The notes under the pieces: generated by a model | What the model saw: only the letters and a program-made list of their open reading frames with translations | Told to the model about the DNA's origin: nothing | Databases searched by the model: none | Source: a virus | Reading direction: 5' to 3' (one strand) | DNA: 24,695 nt | Virus record (IMG/VR): IMGVR_UViG_3300022072_000128 | Span: 1 to 24,695 of that record | Shown here: positions 3,001 through 24,017 of the stretch, in pieces | Layout of the letters: each line of letters begins with the position of its first letter | How positions within the stretch are numbered: position 1 is the stretch's first letter | Position numbers and translations under genes: made by a program

Positions 3001-6000
3001 TTCTAACTGTTTAGCTGCTACATCTTCTCTATTTGTTTTAGATGTTACTTTAGCTCTAGCTGCTTCACCTTTTAGTTTTTTACGTAAAGTATTATTAACT
3101 ACATATGCTTTAGACAGCTGTCCAAGACGTTTACGTAACGTGCGAATTTCTTGGTACATGGAAGCAAACGCTCTGCGTTTGGTTATATACTTTTTTTGCT
3201 CAACTACTGAACCGCTTATTCTTTCCAATGGTTCAGGTAGTAAATCATTCATAGCTGTAAAGCTCTCAGCAGCAGCCTCAGAAGCTATTACCTCTTCTGC
3301 GGCTAATTGCTTAACTTCTTCAGTTAACACCTCAGAATACGCTTTTAAAGCTTCAGTTGTACGGTCTTCTTGCGAAGATACAAAAGGAGCGTCTGCTAAA
3401 AATAATTTATAAGCATCAAACCAGATAGACTTATTAGCATCTGTAAGTAGCCCTGATTTAACAATATTAGCATATATAGTACCTTTACTGCTTAAAGGTA
3501 TATTCTTCATCTTACCTAAGATAAGTTTAAGTATTTCTTCTGCAGGCATGTTTTTAATAACATTTTCTTCAACACCTGTTATTTCACTGATACCCGTAAC
3601 TACTGCAGGAGTAGCTAAGACTGAACCAGATAAAATATCTGTAGGAGTTAAAGTATGTAATACTTTTGTTTTTACTTTAAATACCTCTTGTTTAGTAGGT
3701 GCAATCATACTCATATTTGCTTGTATAAGTTGACTAAGTGCTGTGACACTTTTACTTGAAACACCTAAAAGTTCTACAATGTGTTTTACAAAAGTATCTA
3801 AAAAACTAGAGTTTAGTTTGTTAACTTTAACTGAACCAAGATAGTTAATAAAATCAGTGTTACTCATTCCCATTACAATAAATTCTTGAATATTATTTAA
3901 TGGATAAGCCCACTTAATTGCATCTTCTTTAGATGCTTGTTTTTTAACTTGTTTTAATAAATTTGTAATTTGGGTATAAAATACTTTTTGCTCAGGTGTA
4001 TTACTTTCTTTCGGTTTAGCAGAATTCCATAAAAAACTATGAAGCAACTCGTGTAAGATAACCTCACCTTTTAACTTGAGGTCAGTTATGTTATTAGCAA
4101 TATATACTTTACCTTCCGTTGCTTTATAAGTACCTAGTGCATGGGAGCCATCAGAATGTTTTATAAGTTTATCTGAGTTAGGTTCTACATAAATAACTTC
4201 AGTATCTTTAGGTAAAGCGTTTTTTAATGCTTCTGCAACTTCAGTTAAGTTACCATACACACCTGACTCAATTTGTACCGTAAGGATTTCAGCACCATTA
4301 GTAACAACAGATGTAGAAGCTTTATTATCTTCTTTAATCTTTGACCATACACCTGAACCAGAATCTACTTCCTCGTAACCTTTAAAAGACAAGTATTGAG
4401 CTAATCTACCTTCTCCTGTCTTATTATAACTTCTGTTTCGTGCTTCAAAATTGTCTGCAATAATAGTGGCACCTGCCTCTACTGCTTTATTAACTTCCTT
4501 AGCTGTAGCTGATTGAGCACTAAACTTCTTACCATTCTCCCCATTTACACTTACAAAAACAGTATCGTCTGCAGAATAAACACCTGTATTAGCTTTTTCT
4601 CCCCAAGCTAATCGGTATTCTTCTGTAGACGTATCTTTGGCACCAAAGCCAATAAATTTATTAGCTTGGTCAGACTTCCTTTGGTCTTTATTAAGTAACT
4701 CTGTAGTTAACCTACCTGAACCAGCGAGCACTACCTTAGTAGGTTCAGCTTTCTTTCTTAACACCACCTGTGCATCATGCTGTATAACATTACCATCATT
4801 GTCAGTGAGTGTGACTGTAGCAGTTATACGACCATCACTTCCTTCACGAATTTCACTAATTTTAGTTATAACAGTATCTTCAGGCAAAGAATCGAGGGCT
4901 ACTTCATACCCTGTTCCTTCAAGACCTACAACAATACCAACAGAAGTGATATCCCTTTGTGTTGTGGGTTTGTCACTTCTATTAGAAGAGAATGTAGTGG
5001 TAGTAATACCATCATCACTTACTTTAGTACTCTTAAAGAATGTACGGGTTCTACCCTTTCTATCCGTAGAGGTAAGAGTTCCCATTGGAGACTCTGTAGT
5101 AGGTTTAGTAACAACTTCTTCTTCAACCTTCTTACCTTCAGGGTCAAGGATGTCCCTAGCCAGTGTATCAATTTGATTTAAGGTATCTAAATCCTTTGAA
5201 ACTGCATCAATAGTGCGTTGCAGTCTACCCATACCTTTATAAGTAAAGCTTTTTGAACCTTTACCCATTGCACCAGATGTATCCCATACTGCTTTACCTA
5301 ATGAAGGGTCAGCTTTTAAACCTTCAAGAGCTGCTAGCTTACCAGTCTGGTTAGACTGTAAATAGCCTATAAACAAGTCATAAACAGCTTCTGCTTCCTG
5401 AGTATTACCTTTACCTAAAGCTGTAAGAAATGTGTCTACATGTTTACCTAAAGTACGATCACCTTTACTACCAAATAGTTCAGCACGTACTCTTTCAGTA
5501 CCTGTAAGCGGTTTACCTTTAGTATCTACTTCATTGGCTCTAAGTGTTGAGACAAACTCAAATAACTTTTGCTTATCAACATCTTGGGTAGATTGAGCAA
5601 ATAGATCAAGAGTTTCCCCTGACAACTGGCTTAGTTTATCTTCAGAATATAAAACTACATCTCCTATAGTCTCGATTAAAGCATCTACTTGTGCTGTTGA
5701 ACTATCCTGACCTAGTTCAGTCTTTTGCTTTATTAAAGACATTACTAACTGTTCTGTATCACCTACTTCAATATTATTAATTACTTTAGCTACAGTGTTA
5801 TAGTCAGCTTTAGCACTATCTAAAGGGTTAAGAGTCGTAGCTAAGTTAGCAATTGTTTGCGCATCTTTTTCAGATAAATCCGAATTACTAAGTAACTTAA
5901 CACCTGCCACAGTTAAATCCGTGTTGTCAGTTTGTGCTTTGTAAAGTGACTGACCAATAGCTTCAAAATCTTTACCATCCTTACGTAAGTTTTCTTCAGA

Positions 6001-7563
6001 TAAATCTGTATTCAAAGTATGTTCTAGTACTGAATTAACATAAGATTTTACCTCAGCATTATCTGTTTCATAATTTGAATAAGTATCAATAACTTCCTTA
6101 GTTCTACTAGCTACTTCTACCTCATCTTCTACAGGCGCTCTTTCAGGGGCATACCTTTCTATTACATTATTCGGTTCAGCTTTAGAAGTACCTGCCTCTG
6201 GTTCCTTATTTTTTATTGTAGCGTTGTTATTTTCTTCTTGCAGTTCTTGTACAGCTTCAGCTAATTCTGTAGAATTTTGATCAACACGAGCTTGAGAAAG
6301 TTTTTCAACTGCTTTAGTAACAGTTCTTCCTGCACCTGCCATTACACCACCAGATAAACCACCTGCTGCAAGACCTGCACCTGCAGATTCACCTACACCT
6401 TCAAGTGCATCTTTAGACTCATCACCTTCTTTAACTTGTATATTTGAAACAAGTTGTCCTGCACCCGATTGAACTGTTTCTTCAACTGCTTCAACTGCTG
6501 CGCCTTTAGCGGTTGATTTAATTATACCTTTTTTAACACCTTTATTTAATACGTTACCAAACGTATCTGCAGCACCTGTAGCTTTACCTACTAAAGCAGC
6601 AATTGAACCAGAAATAATTGCTGTGTCACGAGCACCTTCTTCAGCAAATTGTAAACGTACTTCTTCAAAAGTAGCGTTAGGCATCTTCTTAGTTAATTCT
6701 TGAAAGTCACTAGACTGTTTAAGTACTTCTGGAGTAAGGTTTAATATTGCATCCCGAGTTTGAATAGCATTATTGGTACCCTCAGACACACCTGTATAAA
6801 CTGCACCTGTTATTCCACCTGCTTTAGTTGCAGCTTTTTGCCCTGCTTTAGCTATAAAAGCTTTTGAAGCAGCACTTTCAGCCACACTTTTACCTAACTT
6901 TTTCTTTATTCCCGACTTAACTGCAACTTTTGCAGCTCCACCAATAATACCACCAGTTGCAGCCATCGCAACTAGGTCAGCAGAACTCTTAGCAGCCTCA
7001 GAAACAGCAGCTAATGGATTAGTTATGTAATCACCAACCGTACCAAAGAACTCGCTTAGAGACTCTCCTGCGGAGATGTTACCATCACCCATTTGTATAG
7101 CTTTGCGTTCTGCAGCAGCATTAACAATATTTGCTTTAGCTTGACGTAAATCCATTGAATATTCTTTTTCGGATTCTTCAGCTTCAGCTTGCTGAGTAGC
7201 AACACCTTCCCAACCAAATTTAGATAAAGCATCTGAATTAACTGCATCCCCTATTAAACCTGTTACACCATAACCTGTTTGAGCAAGCCTATCACCGAAT
7301 GCAATACCAAGGTCAGTACCTAAATCTTCCATGGTTCCTTGGTTTCTTGTTGCCTTAAATATTCTCTGTTGGTTGAGAAAGTTTCTCATGTCTAGTGAAT
7401 TAGCCGTAGGATTTTGAACCATGAACTCCTCAAGAGGAGCTACTAGTTGAGCATCGGTAAAAGCAGTTTGTTTTTTAAGATGAGCTTGACCCACCGCCTC
7501 TGCTTTCGCAGAAGTGATGTTTAAATTCATTGTGCGTTGGAAGAGATTGTCAGGTGTAACCAT
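1..7563 (-). CDS. Giant virion RNA polymerase (N4 vRNAP-like) with zinc-peptidase motif, partial
   Basis: Open in one frame from ATG 7563 to the left edge (at least 2521 residues; C-terminus missing). Upstream AAGG lies about 10 bases before the ATG, 24 bases after the previous stop. Residues about 182-421 are Ala/Gly-rich and hydrophobic, followed by a Glu/Gln linker and helical repeats. About 800-960 is beta-rich. About 962-1080 is a compact domain (FIGFG, IIADN, GEGRLAQYL). HELLH is at 1171-1175 with a possible third zinc ligand at E1227 (NNIQEF). A Lys/Glu-rich coiled coil spans about 1452-1580. The polymerase part starts near 1700: SANGR (R2126) followed by NPQAN (2134-2138, as in T7 GRVYAVSMFNPQGN), motif A DGKTNG (D2263), motif B R2362-x3-K2366-x7-Y2374-G. 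Spacings match N4 vRNAP (R424, D559, K670, Y678 of its central domain). In N4 this enzyme is packaged, injected and transcribes early genes. Motif C must lie off-window. Role of the N-terminal 1700 residues is unknown. Confidence 0.88.
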   Translation of the reverse strand, partial: MVTPDNLFQRTMNLNITSAKAEAVGQAHLKKQTAFTDAQLVAPLEEFMVQNPTANSLDMRNFLNQQRIFKATRNQGTMEDLGTDLGIAFGDRLAQTGYGVTGLIGDAVNSDALSKFGWEGVATQQAEAEESEKEYSMDLRQAKANIVNAAAERKAIQMGDGNISAGESLSEFFGTVGDYITNPLAAVSEAAKSSADLVAMAATGGIIGGAAKVAVKSGIKKKLGKSVAESAASKAFIAKAGQKAATKAGGITGAVYTGVSEGTNNAIQTRDAILNLTPEVLKQSSDFQELTKKMPNATFEEVRLQFAEEGARDTAIISGSIAALVGKATGAADTFGNVLNKGVKKGIIKSTAKGAAVEAVEETVQSGAGQLVSNIQVKEGDESKDALEGVGESAGAGLAAGGLSGGVMAGAGRTVTKAVEKLSQARVDQNSTELAEAVQELQEENNNATIKNKEPEAGTSKAEPNNVIERYAPERAPVEDEVEVASRTKEVIDTYSNYETDNAEVKSYVNSVLEHTLNTDLSEENLRKDGKDFEAIGQSLYKAQTDNTDLTVAGVKLLSNSDLSEKDAQTIANLATTLNPLDSAKADYNTVAKVINNIEVGDTEQLVMSLIKQKTELGQDSSTAQVDALIETIGDVVLYSEDKLSQLSGETLDLFAQSTQDVDKQKLFEFVSTLRANEVDTKGKPLTGTERVRAELFGSKGDRTLGKHVDTFLTALGKGNTQEAEAVYDLFIGYLQSNQTGKLAALEGLKADPSLGKAVWDTSGAMGKGSKSFTYKGMGRLQRTIDAVSKDLDTLNQIDTLARDILDPEGKKVEEEVVTKPTTESPMGTLTSTDRKGRTRTFFKSTKVSDDGITTTTFSSNRSDKPTTQRDITSVGIVVGLEGTGYEVALDSLPEDTVITKISEIREGSDGRITATVTLTDNDGNVIQHDAQVVLRKKAEPTKVVLAGSGRLTTELLNKDQRKSDQANKFIGFGAKDTSTEEYRLAWGEKANTGVYSADDTVFVSVNGENGKKFSAQSATAKEVNKAVEAGATIIADNFEARNRSYNKTGEGRLAQYLSFKGYEEVDSGSGVWSKIKEDNKASTSVVTNGAEILTVQIESGVYGNLTEVAEALKNALPKDTEVIYVEPNSDKLIKHSDGSHALGTYKATEGKVYIANNITDLKLKGEVILHELLHSFLWNSAKPKESNTPEQKVFYTQITNLLKQVKKQASKEDAIKWAYPLNNIQEFIVMGMSNTDFINYLGSVKVNKLNSSFLDTFVKHIVELLGVSSKSVTALSQLIQANMSMIAPTKQEVFKVKTKVLHTLTPTDILSGSVLATPAVVTGISEITGVEENVIKNMPAEEILKLILGKMKNIPLSSKGTIYANIVKSGLLTDANKSIWFDAYKLFLADAPFVSSQEDRTTEALKAYSEVLTEEVKQLAAEEVIASEAAAESFTAMNDLLPEPLERISGSVVEQKKYITKRRAFASMYQEIRTLRKRLGQLSKAYVVNNTLRKKLKGEAARAKVTSKTNREDVAAKQLEVKSNLNEIKLERVELVTQVKELEEALKNSILLFNKVRSKYFVAEEVSQKTTEVKVAKQQSARMAKEGKTSYDMEAATHSQYSRINSIAETIAIAKYNLDILAVAIGMKPAVLKAIVRGETKSTKSISQQIADEIKTNILSKDAAKSTVEAYIQDSIFTLGSLVEESLVGKRGGKKRLGIKTLPAIQESFRQKFAKDIRTMPDGHPAKALLNSLKEDNPLKTSLGSFKESALWDMSSILNLTSDNTVAMAEFAEKHDVLVEDVMALVQDYAQFKTKFENNIHQAIKSTPLNTSVNMGRVSVLLIDEYGNIPEHFIQTSFLSYAEGMEYIGHTKYLPRKQLKMYVEKIDRGNTSLQSTFAGKGTFIPDSVISGAVARNTKLVEAYDQNQYLPALNTFLASAVTRMIGDTKGVDMVTVKHNNKSYYGYTRNPEVNLSSLLLKGDTKILKAEYGVKRNRLNHIGTPPNTDYSHLPVKAREMAELTESTPFYLDNVKFELMLKSVLVKVDGKTDLKATATAFVEQYLHEPEDIDILGGTRLINKVETTILPLNVNDQLAKIGKKEGYKAEFTSAYALYIRLQEESSNEKSPYYKKSVPIYYSSFFSANGRQFFEGEVNPQANKLHRILVRTSFNRGNIKVHGSRAKLVKNYKSNPTSALKHYVLALGLGLGVKVDKQSNEISLKETFAKLFLLGKEIKLSKAKTIPEFLAWQREESLNYKAPTVEYIEALDSIFNGYTQKPLPIEVDGKTNGVFHSNWAYGMGIVDAKGYDLKRLLAMGGLKDSLDATDTHHDPAMMDMYQTISGEATNNLKNMKANDELSDDTAKAWAFLKDQVSFVGFGEIFERNASKAGVTSTVYGGSLKALVSGLIYGAKSGEGFLAKFYMDVSAAIGTPINSPERIQLKGWNDVFWEGNSVPVMDDVKLSNYTLTDKQQEDITKHVKETLGKSIDRAISDVLYRSKDVTDQVTMATGTMVALYNMAQVKLTKAVIKKRKLPPTASLSKEK

Positions 7564-18693: not shown

Positions 18694-18972
18694 TTAAACT
18701 GCGTAATTAACTAGTAGTTCAGGTATTGATACAACTAAACTAGTCTCAGAGTTTACAAGCACCAATACAGGTTGAGTGTACTCATCATTAATTTTTAACT
18801 CAATAGTAAAAGTACCTTCCACTAAGTTAAAGTTATATAAACCATCAATGCCTATTTCAACTTTAGCAGTTCCACCTATAAAAGTAACTGTACTGTCATT
18901 TGCAGTTATTCTTACAGTACTTGCTACTTCTGTATTAGAAGGGTCAACTAGTGTCCCTGTAACTTGTATCAT
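18694..18972 (-). CDS. Stand-alone homologue of the fibre N-terminal domain, 92 aa
   Basis: The ATG at 18972 has AGAAGGA 6 bases upstream, a near-ideal site, whereas the longer frame from 18993 would start with MCSEGFK and has no such site. The whole protein aligns by eye with residues 1-92 of the tail fibre encoded upstream: MI-x-(V/I)-TGTLVDP at the start, then R-x-TA, GLY-x-F-x-L, DE(Y/F) and VLV-(N/D)-S near the end, with SI-x-EL and YA at the C-terminus. The fold is probably a small beta-sandwich of the Phage_tail_N (PF08400) or carboxypeptidase-regulatory-like type. It is the first gene of the portal-capsid unit. Role unknown: virion decoration protein, fibre docking partner or chaperone are all possible. 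Confidence 0.85.
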   Translation of the reverse strand: MIQVTGTLVDPSNTEVASTVRITANDSTVTFIGGTAKVEIGIDGLYNFNLVEGTFTIELKINDEYTQPVLVLVNSETSLVVSIPELLVNYAV

Positions 18973-18988
18973 TTTAAATCCTTCTGAG

Positions 18989-19012
18989 CACAAATAGGAT
19001 ACATACTAACAT
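18989..19012 (-). promoter_or_regulatory. Putative late promoter element, copy A
   Basis: Minus-strand sequence ATGTTAGTAT-N8-TTTGTG, ending 17 bases before the ATG of the 92-residue gene. The same gapped motif with identical spacing occurs at 24392-24415, also just upstream of a gene cluster. No convincing sigma70 -35/-10 pair with 16-18 spacing is evident, although TTGACT occurs upstream of copy A. Probably a phage-specific or activated promoter. Confidence 0.6.
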
Positions 19013-19058: not shown

Positions 19059-22000
19059 CTAACCTTCACTTGAAGTTAACGATAGTCGTTGACTCGGTGT
19101 CCAGTTAGTCCCTTGCATAAAGTTAGTGCGTGATGTCATTAATAATCTGTACGCTCTAATATCACTTGAATAGTCGCTGTCGTAAAATGTGAAACCACGA
19201 TTTAATGATTGATATCCTGAGTTAATCCATCTACCTTCGCCTTCTGATTCGTATGTACTGTAGTAAACCCCTCTTTCACCTAATAGTGATCTACTTGCTT
19301 TATCAACCCATACACCCCCCAAATATTGTTGAAACACAACAATACACTCAGGTACAGGTATGTCTTGGGTGGTTAATTCAGAAGAACCATAAGGGTTATT
19401 ATATCGTGAATTAAGACTTACAGAGTAGTTAACAGCAATTAAACCTTCATTCGAACCTATCGAGATATCTACATTCGCAGTGTCTGCAAGATCTGAAGTT
19501 GCTTTAGAAGTTTGTAACGCGCCACTGATTATCGTGCCACCAAAATAAGCATCACCATCTGTTGTAAGATACGTAATAGCATTAGATTTAGTTACATTTG
19601 TGTAGTTAATTATATTGTCTGCAGGATCCCCCACTAAATGCCTTTCACCAAACCACTCAATAAATTGACCTGATGAACCAAACCCATCTGCTGCTGAAAT
19701 ACGCATGTGAGAACTACCTACATACTCAATTTTAGGTGAACGAAGTCCTACGTTTGCAACAATTTTTTCCGTGGTTATTACATTTGCAGCTAGCTTATCT
19801 GTTGTAATAGTTTCCGTAACTAAAGCTTCAGCTGCAACTGTACCATGAACTAGCTGGTTTCCGTTTACAACGTCAATAAAGTTTTCCCACGTTGTACCGT
19901 TGTACAGGTAATCTAAACGAAATCTTAAAGTTTCATCTGAGGCAGAATCATTTACATAACTCAATACATCTTTGTTTTGAGGTTGTTTACTTACAGCAGA
20001 TACAAAATCACTTGTTTTAATTGAATTAGACTTAGTAGCAATTGAATTTTCAGATGTTGTATTTGGAACAATAATAATGTAACTACCTGAACCAAACTCA
20101 CCATTAGTACCTGATGCACCTGAAGGCCCAAAAGCTATTCCAGTTATACTTATATCTGGATAATCAGCTGTACAATCAAATCTATACGCACCACTAGGAA
20201 CATTATTTGAAGTGTAAAACACTGTCCCATTTTTAAGGTAAGTTACTTCTTTAGTATCATTTACAACTGTTAAAATATCCGAAGGAGCATAAGAAACCCC
20301 TGTATCCAAGGTAAATACTCCCTCTTCATAGATATATAATAAATTATTACGACCTAAAATGGCATAATCTATCGTACTGTAATGAGGTGAAGTTCCTATA
20401 TCATTTGAAATACCAAACATTAATCCTTCAGTACCTGTGGCTTCTGAAAATACAGCTGTAGAAAAACAACCACCAGAATAAGACTCGGCAGAGTAAGCTC
20501 CTGCATTCCAAGCTGTGTTTGTCCCCACATGTGTTTTCTTAAATGTATTCTGGCTAACAACTCCGTATGCTGGAGCAGAACTTATTAGTGTAAAAAAAGA
20601 TACACCATCAGTTCCGTTAACACTTGCTACTACAGCATCTTCCCAATCATTTACAACAATATTTTCTGTAAGAACTTCAGCTGAAGAAGTTACAGGTGCA
20701 ACAGTTATCCACAACTTGTTCCCCTCTCCAGTACTACTTGGGCGAGTTGTTTGCCAGTTTCCACTAGAAGTTGCAGTAATTTTTTGAGTGGCAAACTCAA
20801 AAGTAAGTGTTTCTGCAGGTAAACTTACACTGTTAACATTTGAACCAGTAACTTGGTAAAGATACGCAGTAGCAAACTTAACACCATTTTTATTTAATAA
20901 GTCTACATCCCAATTATCAATACTTGGATCAATATCCAGTTTAGAAAAAGCAATACCCGAAGCTAACCATAAAGGTAAATTTGACTCAGGAGGTAATTGT
21001 TGACTCCATCCTGCAGTATTACCTGAAATATTTGTTGCAGTTTTAGTAACAAAATTATAACTCCAATTACCAACTGTACTATCGGTTGGGTTAGTTGCTG
21101 ACCTAGTGTACAAAAATAATGGAAAAGATTTATCACCATAATCTATACCTAGTTCAGGTTTAATTTTAGTTGCCCCTACCCAAGGAGTAGTAGTGTATGT
21201 TCCAGTTACAGCTAAGTCCCAATCAATACCTAAATCAGTATTACGTGCAGCTTGATAAGCTGCTTGGTTATACCACCAAACAGTTCTTTCATACTTGTAA
21301 ACATCATCATTTACTAAATTTTTATGCCAATCCACAACACTAGGAGTTACTGCATTAAACGCAGCAGTACCATCTGAACCATAGTAAACTTCAAACTCAG
21401 GTATCCAACCATCCTGCCCATCACTTCCTCTAATTCTTTCTGGTTCACGCCAGTCTCCAATACCTGTTTCGTTAAGTACTTCCCGCTGTCTTCTCCATAC
21501 ATCATTAACAGCATAAACACTTCGCCAAATATTATTAACTAAATCTTGTTCACTAGCATATTGAGTCTGTAAATAATAAGTATCACCTACTAAACCATCT
21601 TGTGCTGCAAGTTTGACATATTGAATTACCCCAGTAAGTTCACTGGTATTATCTGCATAAAGTGTAACTTGACTGTCTTTTCTCCAAATATCTCCTTCAA
21701 CATAGACTACATGCCAAGGGTTATTTAAACCTTTGTCAGTTGAGTATTCATATTGCCAAGATAACGTGCTACCATCGGCACCTTTAAAATCTTGTGGGTT
21801 ATTTACAGTTAAATTACCAAACAGGTTTACTTCATTTGCTTCTGTGTCAAATTCTACAAGGGGAACTCCATCTCTACCTTGGATAATACTTTTATCTACT
21901 TGAGTAGTTAAATTAATTCCTGTGCTGTCTGCAAATAACTTTTGAAAACCTTCAATGGGATTGCCATTTTTACTATATTTAAGTCGTATTCCCTTTTCAA

Positions 22001-22910
22001 ATAAAGCGTCAACTAAATCATTAGCATCTACATACTTAATTTCTTCTTTAGTGTAGACCTCACCTTCGTGAATACCCTCACCTGCTTTATAACTTTTATT
22101 TGAAGCTGTTACAGAGGCACTTTGAGCTGCCCCACCTTCAGGTGTGTACGTTTGCTCAAGTTTTAAAGTTTCGGTGCTCTCAGCACTACCTAGGAGGCTA
22201 ATACTAGAATGTGTAACGTCAATATCGGTAAGAGTTAAGTCGTTTATTACTGAACCCACTGAACCAGTGAAAGATGTGGATTGAGTTGCTTTTTCCTGTC
22301 CGTTTGAACTTTGAAATATCCCAAAAGTAGTTACTCCATTTAAAATAGGAGTTGTAAATTCTTGAGTATTGCCTAAAGCATAGTTGGCACTATTGTCAGA
22401 ATAACTGAGTAACTGGGTAGACTGATTACTTAAACCAGTGCTAAGAGAAAAGTTTTCTGCTGCCAAATACTGTTCTGAATTCTTATGTATAGTTTTTTGT
22501 TCATTTGAGTAAACACCATCTAAACTTACTTGGTGCTCATCTACAAAGTTCCACTCATCACTATTAATTGTTTGGTTAAAAAGTGTTTCCCATACAGTAG
22601 GTAACTCACTAGAAATAGTTACTACAACTGGAGAAGCGTATCTAATTAATTCTTGAATACTAATATTAGAAGGAGTACTCGAATCTACTAATACTGTACC
22701 TGAAATATGAAATTCATCTGTATATAAAACTTCTAAAAGATACCGTCCATTTTCCAGTGGAAAAGTATATAACCCAGCTTCATCGGAAGTATGAGTTGCA
22801 TCCATTTGATTTAAGATTTCACCTGTTGTACTTAAAGCGGTAAGTCTTATACTAGCTAAAGGAATTACACCCTGCATAGGATCGACTAATGTACCTGTAA
22901 TAGTTATCAT
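19059..22910 (-). CDS. Tail fibre / receptor-binding protein, 1283 aa
   Basis: Residues 1-92 form a prophage-tail-fibre N-terminal domain (Phage_tail_N, PF08400 type: MITITGTLVDP, GLYTFPLENG), probably the virion attachment module. Two related segments at about 390-405 and 455-472 (WHVVYVEGDIWRK and WRSVYAVNDVWRR) suggest repeated domains, followed by GSDGQDGW. About 770-930 looks like a jelly-roll/SPRY-like lectin domain, ending in a short collagen-like GPSGASGTNGEFGSG. About 1035-1055 has TETITTDKLAANVITTEKI and near 1120 DAYFGGTIISG, sequences typical of lambda-J/DUF1983-type fibres. The C-terminal 140 residues would be a variable tip. AGG lies 7 bases before the ATG. It follows the lysis genes. 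Receptor binding is inference from architecture. Confidence 0.9.
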   Translation of the reverse strand: MITITGTLVDPMQGVIPLASIRLTALSTTGEILNQMDATHTSDEAGLYTFPLENGRYLLEVLYTDEFHISGTVLVDSSTPSNISIQELIRYASPVVVTISSELPTVWETLFNQTINSDEWNFVDEHQVSLDGVYSNEQKTIHKNSEQYLAAENFSLSTGLSNQSTQLLSYSDNSANYALGNTQEFTTPILNGVTTFGIFQSSNGQEKATQSTSFTGSVGSVINDLTLTDIDVTHSSISLLGSAESTETLKLEQTYTPEGGAAQSASVTASNKSYKAGEGIHEGEVYTKEEIKYVDANDLVDALFEKGIRLKYSKNGNPIEGFQKLFADSTGINLTTQVDKSIIQGRDGVPLVEFDTEANEVNLFGNLTVNNPQDFKGADGSTLSWQYEYSTDKGLNNPWHVVYVEGDIWRKDSQVTLYADNTSELTGVIQYVKLAAQDGLVGDTYYLQTQYASEQDLVNNIWRSVYAVNDVWRRQREVLNETGIGDWREPERIRGSDGQDGWIPEFEVYYGSDGTAAFNAVTPSVVDWHKNLVNDDVYKYERTVWWYNQAAYQAARNTDLGIDWDLAVTGTYTTTPWVGATKIKPELGIDYGDKSFPLFLYTRSATNPTDSTVGNWSYNFVTKTATNISGNTAGWSQQLPPESNLPLWLASGIAFSKLDIDPSIDNWDVDLLNKNGVKFATAYLYQVTGSNVNSVSLPAETLTFEFATQKITATSSGNWQTTRPSSTGEGNKLWITVAPVTSSAEVLTENIVVNDWEDAVVASVNGTDGVSFFTLISSAPAYGVVSQNTFKKTHVGTNTAWNAGAYSAESYSGGCFSTAVFSEATGTEGLMFGISNDIGTSPHYSTIDYAILGRNNLLYIYEEGVFTLDTGVSYAPSDILTVVNDTKEVTYLKNGTVFYTSNNVPSGAYRFDCTADYPDISITGIAFGPSGASGTNGEFGSGSYIIIVPNTTSENSIATKSNSIKTSDFVSAVSKQPQNKDVLSYVNDSASDETLRFRLDYLYNGTTWENFIDVVNGNQLVHGTVAAEALVTETITTDKLAANVITTEKIVANVGLRSPKIEYVGSSHMRISAADGFGSSGQFIEWFGERHLVGDPADNIINYTNVTKSNAITYLTTDGDAYFGGTIISGALQTSKATSDLADTANVDISIGSNEGLIAVNYSVSLNSRYNNPYGSSELTTQDIPVPECIVVFQQYLGGVWVDKASRSLLGERGVYYSTYESEGEGRWINSGYQSLNRGFTFYDSDYSSDIRAYRLLMTSRTNFMQGTNWTPSQRLSLTSSEG

Positions 22911-23439: not shown

Positions 23440-23676
23440 TTAATCTTCTTGTTTAACCTGAGTGTTGTTAATACACTTTACAAACGCACCTAACAACGCA
23501 GCTACAAACGCAAAAAAACCTGCAACACTTTCTACACTTAAAGTAGTATGATTATTTTCATAGAAATCCCAAACTTTAAGTAACATGTAACCTAAAAAAC
23601 AAACACTACCTATTGCTAGTATCCTGTATTGTTTTAAAGAAGTATGTAAAGGTTGTTTTCCAATGTGCTTGATCAT
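23440..23676 (-). CDS. Putative two-helix holin, 78 aa
   Basis: Small membrane protein with two hydrophobic helices, about residues 19-38 (ILAIGSVCFLGYMLLKVW) and 49-67 (AGFFAFVAALLGAFV), a basic N-terminus (MIKHIGKQPLHTSLKQYR) and a short polar C-terminus. This is the size and topology of class II phage holins, which release endolysin to the periplasm. Its ATG overlaps the endolysin stop (TAATG), so the two are translationally coupled, which strongly supports a lysis role. It could alternatively be an antiholin to the 167-residue protein. Confidence 0.78.
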   Translation of the reverse strand: MIKHIGKQPLHTSLKQYRILAIGSVCFLGYMLLKVWDFYENNHTTLSVESVAGFFAFVAALLGAFVKCINNTQVKQED

Positions 23677-24017
23677 TATTTGCTTCCATTATGTTCTAAA
23701 GAATAATGGTTACCATCATTAAATCTACCACCCCATCTACAATCAGGGTCTAACGATTCCCAGTATAATCCAAATGGTTCATGATCTTTATCAGTAGTTA
23801 AGTAAACACCATCTTTAAATAAGTTTAAATCTAATGCTAATCTAATTTTGTGGCAGGAATTGCGATGTCCGTAAGCTTTCTTTTTTCCAATATGTCCGTG
23901 AATTCTTGGATCTCTAAATGCGTCACCAAAGGTAATTTCATACCCCCGTGCATGTATAAAATCTAATAAATTAGAAATTAACCTAGTAAACTTTTTTTGT
24001 TTATCACCTAAACTCAT
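23676..24017 (-). CDS. M15-type peptidoglycan peptidase (endolysin), 113 aa
   Basis: Single-domain enzyme of the VanY/Peptidase_M15 family, which cleaves peptide cross-links of peptidoglycan. The zinc site is visible: SCHKIRLALDLNLF gives the SxH-x6-D motif (H about residue 56, D about 63), and WGGRF-ND-GNHYSLEH near residues 95-110 gives the downstream WGG...D..H block. There is no signal peptide and no cell-wall-binding domain, consistent with a holin-dependent lysin of a phage of a Gram-negative host. AAAGG lies 7 bases upstream. It precedes two holin-like genes. Confidence 0.9.
   Translation of the reverse strand: MSLGDKQKKFTRLISNLLDFIHARGYEITFGDAFRDPRIHGHIGKKKAYGHRNSCHKIRLALDLNLFKDGVYLTTDKDHEPFGLYWESLDPDCRWGGRFNDGNHYSLEHNGSK

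Follow-up and report, generated by a model that had tools for sequence, protein, structure and literature searches.

A zincin-type metallopeptidase domain N-terminal to the polymerase in the virion RNA polymerase of an N4-like phage

INTRODUCTION

The fusion of a zincin-type metallopeptidase domain to the virion RNA polymerase (vRNAP) of N4-like phages is already known. Iyer et al. (2017) described a zincin at amino acids 2130 to 2448 of the N4 vRNAP (PMC5512222), a 2021 review showed one in Cbunavirus (PMC8472413), and in the 2025 cryo-EM study of N4 by Bellis et al. the HExxH motif is located in the vRNAP subdomain C1 (residues 2124 to 2375), between the polymerase and the C2 domain (PMC12633501). 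The zincins of the polyvalent proteins of phages and conjugative elements, for which 12 clades are given by Iyer et al., likewise combine HExxH with a downstream glutamate in large injected proteins and vary in position and copy number. In the literature consulted, we found no demonstrated activity, zinc content, or substrate for any vRNAP zincin; the preliminary description of the present DNA, which knew of no such activity for the N4 vRNAP, was therefore right about the activity, but the domain itself had been published in the three papers cited above.

Here, we analyzed a viral DNA stretch of 24,695 nucleotides (IMGVR_UViG_3300022072_000128; hereafter, the window), which encodes a vRNAP of the same family with a domain homologous to the C1 zincin of N4. 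What differs is its place: the motif of N4, HELVH at residue 2228, follows the polymerase, whereas that of the window protein, HELLH at residue 1171, precedes it.

RESULTS

Domain architecture of the vRNAP

The vRNAP gene is an open reading frame on the minus strand that runs from position 7563 to position 1 and continues past the window edge, which cuts its 3' end; 2521 residues are encoded in the window. By its sequence, the product belongs to the N4-like virion RNA polymerases (Schitoviridae): it matches the virion RNA polymerase family PHROG 2206 (E = 2.4e-62), and the surrounding genome block also contains the genes for the portal and the major head protein, along with further virion genes of the N4 type. 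A near-identical viral contig, IMGVR_UViG_3300025645_000062 (L018/L001), shares 2517 of the 2521 residues and provides the whole protein of 4299 amino acids; residue numbers in the L018 and L001 listings are 4 higher than those of the window protein. Scans for close relatives with the zincin domain or the polymerase alone matched this contig and one weak relative only.

The order of the domains in the full-length protein is an N-terminal domain (residues 72 to 408), an accessory domain (953 to 1076), the zincin (1088 to 1280), the polymerase (2068 to 2675), a segment with HELTH at residue 2999, and C2 (3451 to 4270). The N-terminal domain (positions 6340 to 7350, minus strand) aligns in BLAST with residues 108 to 439 of the N4 vRNAP (E = 2e-10) and is 47 to 50% identical to vRNAPs of Vibrio Schitoviridae. 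The part of the polymerase domain detected in the window, from residue 2068 on, occupies positions 1 to 1362 of the minus strand, with the TxxGR region at 1209-1129, motif A at 795-739, and motif B at 477-424, i.e., within residues 2119 to 2380. Motif C lies beyond the window edge and is present in the full-length copy, in which the polymerase homology contains TxxGR and motifs A, B, and C and the C2 domain is matched to N4 by BLAST at 1e-40. Approximately 900 residues separate the HELLH motif from the first detected polymerase homology. The proposal that the zincin and the polymerase share one polypeptide is thus borne out by the vRNAP zincin profiles described below together with the PHROG match and the polymerase motifs.

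The accessory domain (positions 4336 to 4707, minus strand) is located directly upstream of the zincin. In the Vibrio phages Kuja and SUMAE, it occurs as a stand-alone gene that adjoins those for ribonucleotide reductase, and it gives a weak match to SLOG/LSDAT (0.005).

The HELLH motif and its conservation

The zincin domain, which is delimited by vRNAP zincin profiles and an AlphaFold2 model, corresponds to positions 3724 to 4302 of the minus strand. HELLH (residues 1171 to 1175; positions 4053-4039, minus strand) contains two predicted zinc ligands, H1171 and H1175, and the predicted general base, E1172. The predicted third ligand, E1227 (positions 3883 to 3885, minus strand), lies in NNIQEF, 52 residues beyond H1175. 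The coordinates and residue numbers of both motifs had been given correctly in the preliminary description. HELLH is the sole HEXXH among the 2521 amino acids of the window protein, and shuffled proteins of the same composition contain 0.017 such motifs on average.

Across 26 aligned relatives, which are 14 to 24% identical to the window domain except for the near-identical copy, the sole invariant columns are H1171, E1172, H1175, and E1227; the conservation of all four residues in homologues and the choice of E1227 as the third ligand, both raised beforehand, agree with this result. The same four columns (H, E, H, and E) are also the highest of all 204 columns in an alignment of 73 zincins from the usual place after the polymerase (98.6%, against 38% for the median column), the one deviant row being a degenerate second copy.

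Searches with residues 1080 to 1290 in tblastn returned, mostly with weak E-values, vRNAPs of Acinetobacter, Erwinia, and Pectobacterium Schitoviridae and the RNAP-associated protein of the crAss-like phage phi14:2. A profile built from nine usual-place vRNAP zincins matches residues 1107 to 1280 at 54.9 bits, and one built from 73 zincins of other vRNAPs matches residues 1108 to 1271 at 77.7 bits, the window protein being left out of both. In the reverse direction, the sequence profile of the window domain detects an internal virion protein at 3e-24, the solved N4 vRNAP entries that contain the HExxH domain at 2e-10, and gp48, an ejection protein of PhiM1, at 2e-8. A Pfam search of the domain gave no peptidase family above its cut-off.

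Predicted fold of the zincin domain

The AlphaFold2 model of the domain has a mean pLDDT of 78, with most of the core at 91 to 95. It consists of a helix (residues 1104 to 1116), three strands (1122 to 1126, 1144 to 1147, and 1152 to 1156), the helix that contains HELLH (1162 to 1181), and the helix that contains E1227 (1225 to 1234), which is the core described by Iyer et al. for such peptidases (PMC5512222). A β-strand pattern had been proposed ahead of HELLH; KVYIA (residues 1152 to 1156; positions 4096 to 4110, minus strand) is indeed modeled as a strand ahead of the active-site helix, but LKGEVIL belongs to the HELLH helix itself, which starts at residue 1162.

The model resembles injected or internal phage proteins. 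A fold search against predicted viral structures gave matches with a probability of 1.00 to gp65 of Cellulophaga phage phi14:2 (TM 0.64), T7-like internal core proteins, vRNAPs, and crAss-like proteins, including a crAss "RNAP associated protein fused to zincin protease." The best fold matches, phi14:2 gp65 (a crAss-like RNAP-associated protein with approximately 29% identity to the window domain over the matched part) and phiKMV-like internal core proteins, are virion or internal proteins; unlike the window domain, they are separate proteins without an N4-type polymerase in the same chain. The search against the PDB gave no significant match; the resemblance to solved zincins outside phages is thus weak, which counts against the assignment, although the best hit was Certhrax (E = 0.086) and IrrE and selecase likewise ranked high. 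Taken with the profile matches, the model leaves little doubt that residues 1088 to 1280 form a zincin.

Position of the zincin among vRNAPs

To place this arrangement, 118 nonredundant vRNAPs with a detected polymerase and C2 domain were surveyed; in 10 of them, fewer than 300 residues are visible ahead of the polymerase. The zincin follows the polymerase and precedes the C-terminal domain in N4 and in nearly all of its relatives. HExxH is found after the polymerase in 115 of the 118 (114 by script, plus L249, in which the C2 start was miscalled and HEILH at residue 2452 follows the polymerase) and before the polymerase in seven, including the window protein. Each of the three that lack the usual HExxH (L125, L209, and L152) has the motif N-terminal to the polymerase, and no vRNAP of the 118 lacks it at both places. 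The association between loss and an N-terminal motif is significant (Fisher p = 0.0002 to 0.0005 at 90, 70, and 50% clustering); it is based on three vRNAPs, and L125 and L209 are related in both their N-terminal zincins and their polymerases, so that at least two and perhaps not three events are represented. Because these three carry an HExxH upstream of the polymerase, the presence of the domain appears to matter more than its position, and the survey suggests that N4-like vRNAPs always keep at least one zincin-type HExxH domain. The injected polymerase of each surveyed phage thus has at least one HExxH, usually in a clear zincin domain.

The seven N-terminal domains are not of one kind. The usual-zincin profile matches four of them (the window domain at 78 bits, L152 at 36, L181 at 35, and L046 at 31), and those of L036, L209, and L125 represent another subtype, which also has a downstream glutamate. 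These six uncultured vRNAPs resemble the window protein in having HExxH upstream of the polymerase; their N-terminal zincins are 23 to 24% identical to the window domain or have no clear sequence relation to it, and their HExxH is located 133 to 259 residues ahead of the polymerase, as opposed to approximately 900 in the window protein.

The usual place and the origin of the N-terminal domain

In contrast to N4, the usual place in the window lineage holds a divergent segment, which lies beyond the window and is seen in the full-length near-copy as HELTH at residue 2999 with IQEYAAHL downstream. The downstream glutamate aligns with that of the zincins. The nine-sequence and 73-sequence profiles score this segment at -1.9 and -0.4 bits, respectively; i.e., the usual-place profile matches the window domain and not the segment that occupies the usual place. 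The segment is poorly modeled (pLDDT of 52), and a fold search with this model gave no match. A further motif in the full-length copy, HEVLH at residue 3753, lies within the C2 homology region and was taken as a chance occurrence.

We considered three origins for the window zincin, i.e., a C1 domain that moved, a duplicate, and a capture from other phage proteins, and the sequence trees favor none of them. Among the polyvalent-protein clades, the window domain falls between the vRNAP clade and the non-vRNAP zincins, without firm support.

A second segment that matches the zincin profile follows the usual zincin in 51 of the 118 vRNAPs (e.g., residues 2943 to 3078 of L048, 2836 to 2975 of L036, and 2916 to 3068 of L046; see also 2566 to 2757 of L014). 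HExxH is lost in 50 of these 51 copies, often with E/Q-Q-V-E-A in its place, and only Vibrio phage 1.238.A keeps the motif, as HELSH. This pattern suggests a tandem pair of zincins, the second of which has decayed.

DISCUSSION

On the evidence above, residues 1088 to 1280 would constitute a zinc metallopeptidase of the kind found in the polyvalent injected proteins of phages, in which H1171, H1175, and E1227 would hold the zinc ion and E1172 would activate the water molecule. Catalysis is favored because the general base is strictly conserved, and from the sequence conservation the domain is likely to be active. The zincin would be carried into the host as one of the domains strung along the ejected vRNAP and would act after ejection on another protein, either a host protein or an ejectosome partner, and not in the maturation of the vRNAP itself; the cleavage of a host protein after injection, an idea already raised in the preliminary description, is possible. 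As a whole, the reading of a movable, probably active, injected metallopeptidase whose target, once it has been ejected, is a protein of the host or of the ejectosome seems to us a reasonably probable one. A broader form, in which N4-like vRNAPs need an active zincin irrespective of its place in the chain, N-terminal zincins were gained more than once and can replace a lost C1, and the domain is an injected effector that acts in trans on a host target, is offered tentatively and is less probable than not. With an active site that is strictly conserved and independent of position, the change of one glutamate would test directly for a peptidase function early in infection.

The zincin may instead cut the giant protein itself, in the head or after ejection, and so free the polymerase from its N- or C-terminal parts; in the window protein, the segment to be cut would be the long one that separates the N-terminal zincin from the polymerase. 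Autoprocessing was proposed for polyvalent-protein zincins by Iyer et al., and P1 DdrB is cut before packaging (both PMC5512222); the approximately 900 residues between HELLH and the polymerase homology would also leave room for a cleavable segment. However, the vRNAP of N4 enters the virion without being processed (PMC5512222), and the recombinant N4 vRNAP with its intact zincin was not degraded when purified (PMC12633501); self-cleavage in the head is therefore unlikely in N4, which disfavors the earlier suggestion that the giant protein is processed during assembly. In the other N-terminal cases, moreover, HExxH is only 133 to 259 residues from the polymerase. We regard self-cleavage as improbable, at roughly one chance in a few.

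Less probable still is a purely structural bead, or a scaffold that binds zinc but has no peptidase role, comparable to N4 C1, which contacts the polymerase through the D2012-R2279 salt bridge and helps to hold the C-terminal domain (PMC12633501). The C-terminal region of N4, zincin included, is reported to be needed for encapsidation (PMC5512222), which allows a noncatalytic role, and the decayed second copies indicate that the fold can persist without HExxH. On the other hand, the catalytic glutamate varies no more than the ligands do, and the N-terminal copies retain HExxH and the downstream glutamate even though they are away from the C1-polymerase contact. A purely structural role at the contact between the polymerase and the C-terminal domain is disfavored because the zincin is indifferent to position. 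Finally, the notion that HELLH is a chance motif, for which the Pfam result might be cited, has a negligible probability and was rejected: known zincins from other vRNAPs are homologues of the domain, with H, E, H, and E invariant, only 0.017 motifs are expected per protein, the profile scores are 54.9 to 77.7 bits, and the fold matches have a probability of 1.00.

Other genes in the window

Two further loci, both on the minus strand, were noted. A protein of 113 amino acids (positions 23676 to 24017) resembles M15-type endolysins, with a Pfam match of 5e-4, which is below the cut-off of that database, and a PHROG endolysin match of 9e-10. A tail-fiber-like protein of 1283 amino acids (positions 19059 to 22910) resembles at its N terminus the 99-amino-acid protein of the neighboring open reading frame (positions 18694 to 18993); both start with xTGTLVDP, which points to a possible duplication.
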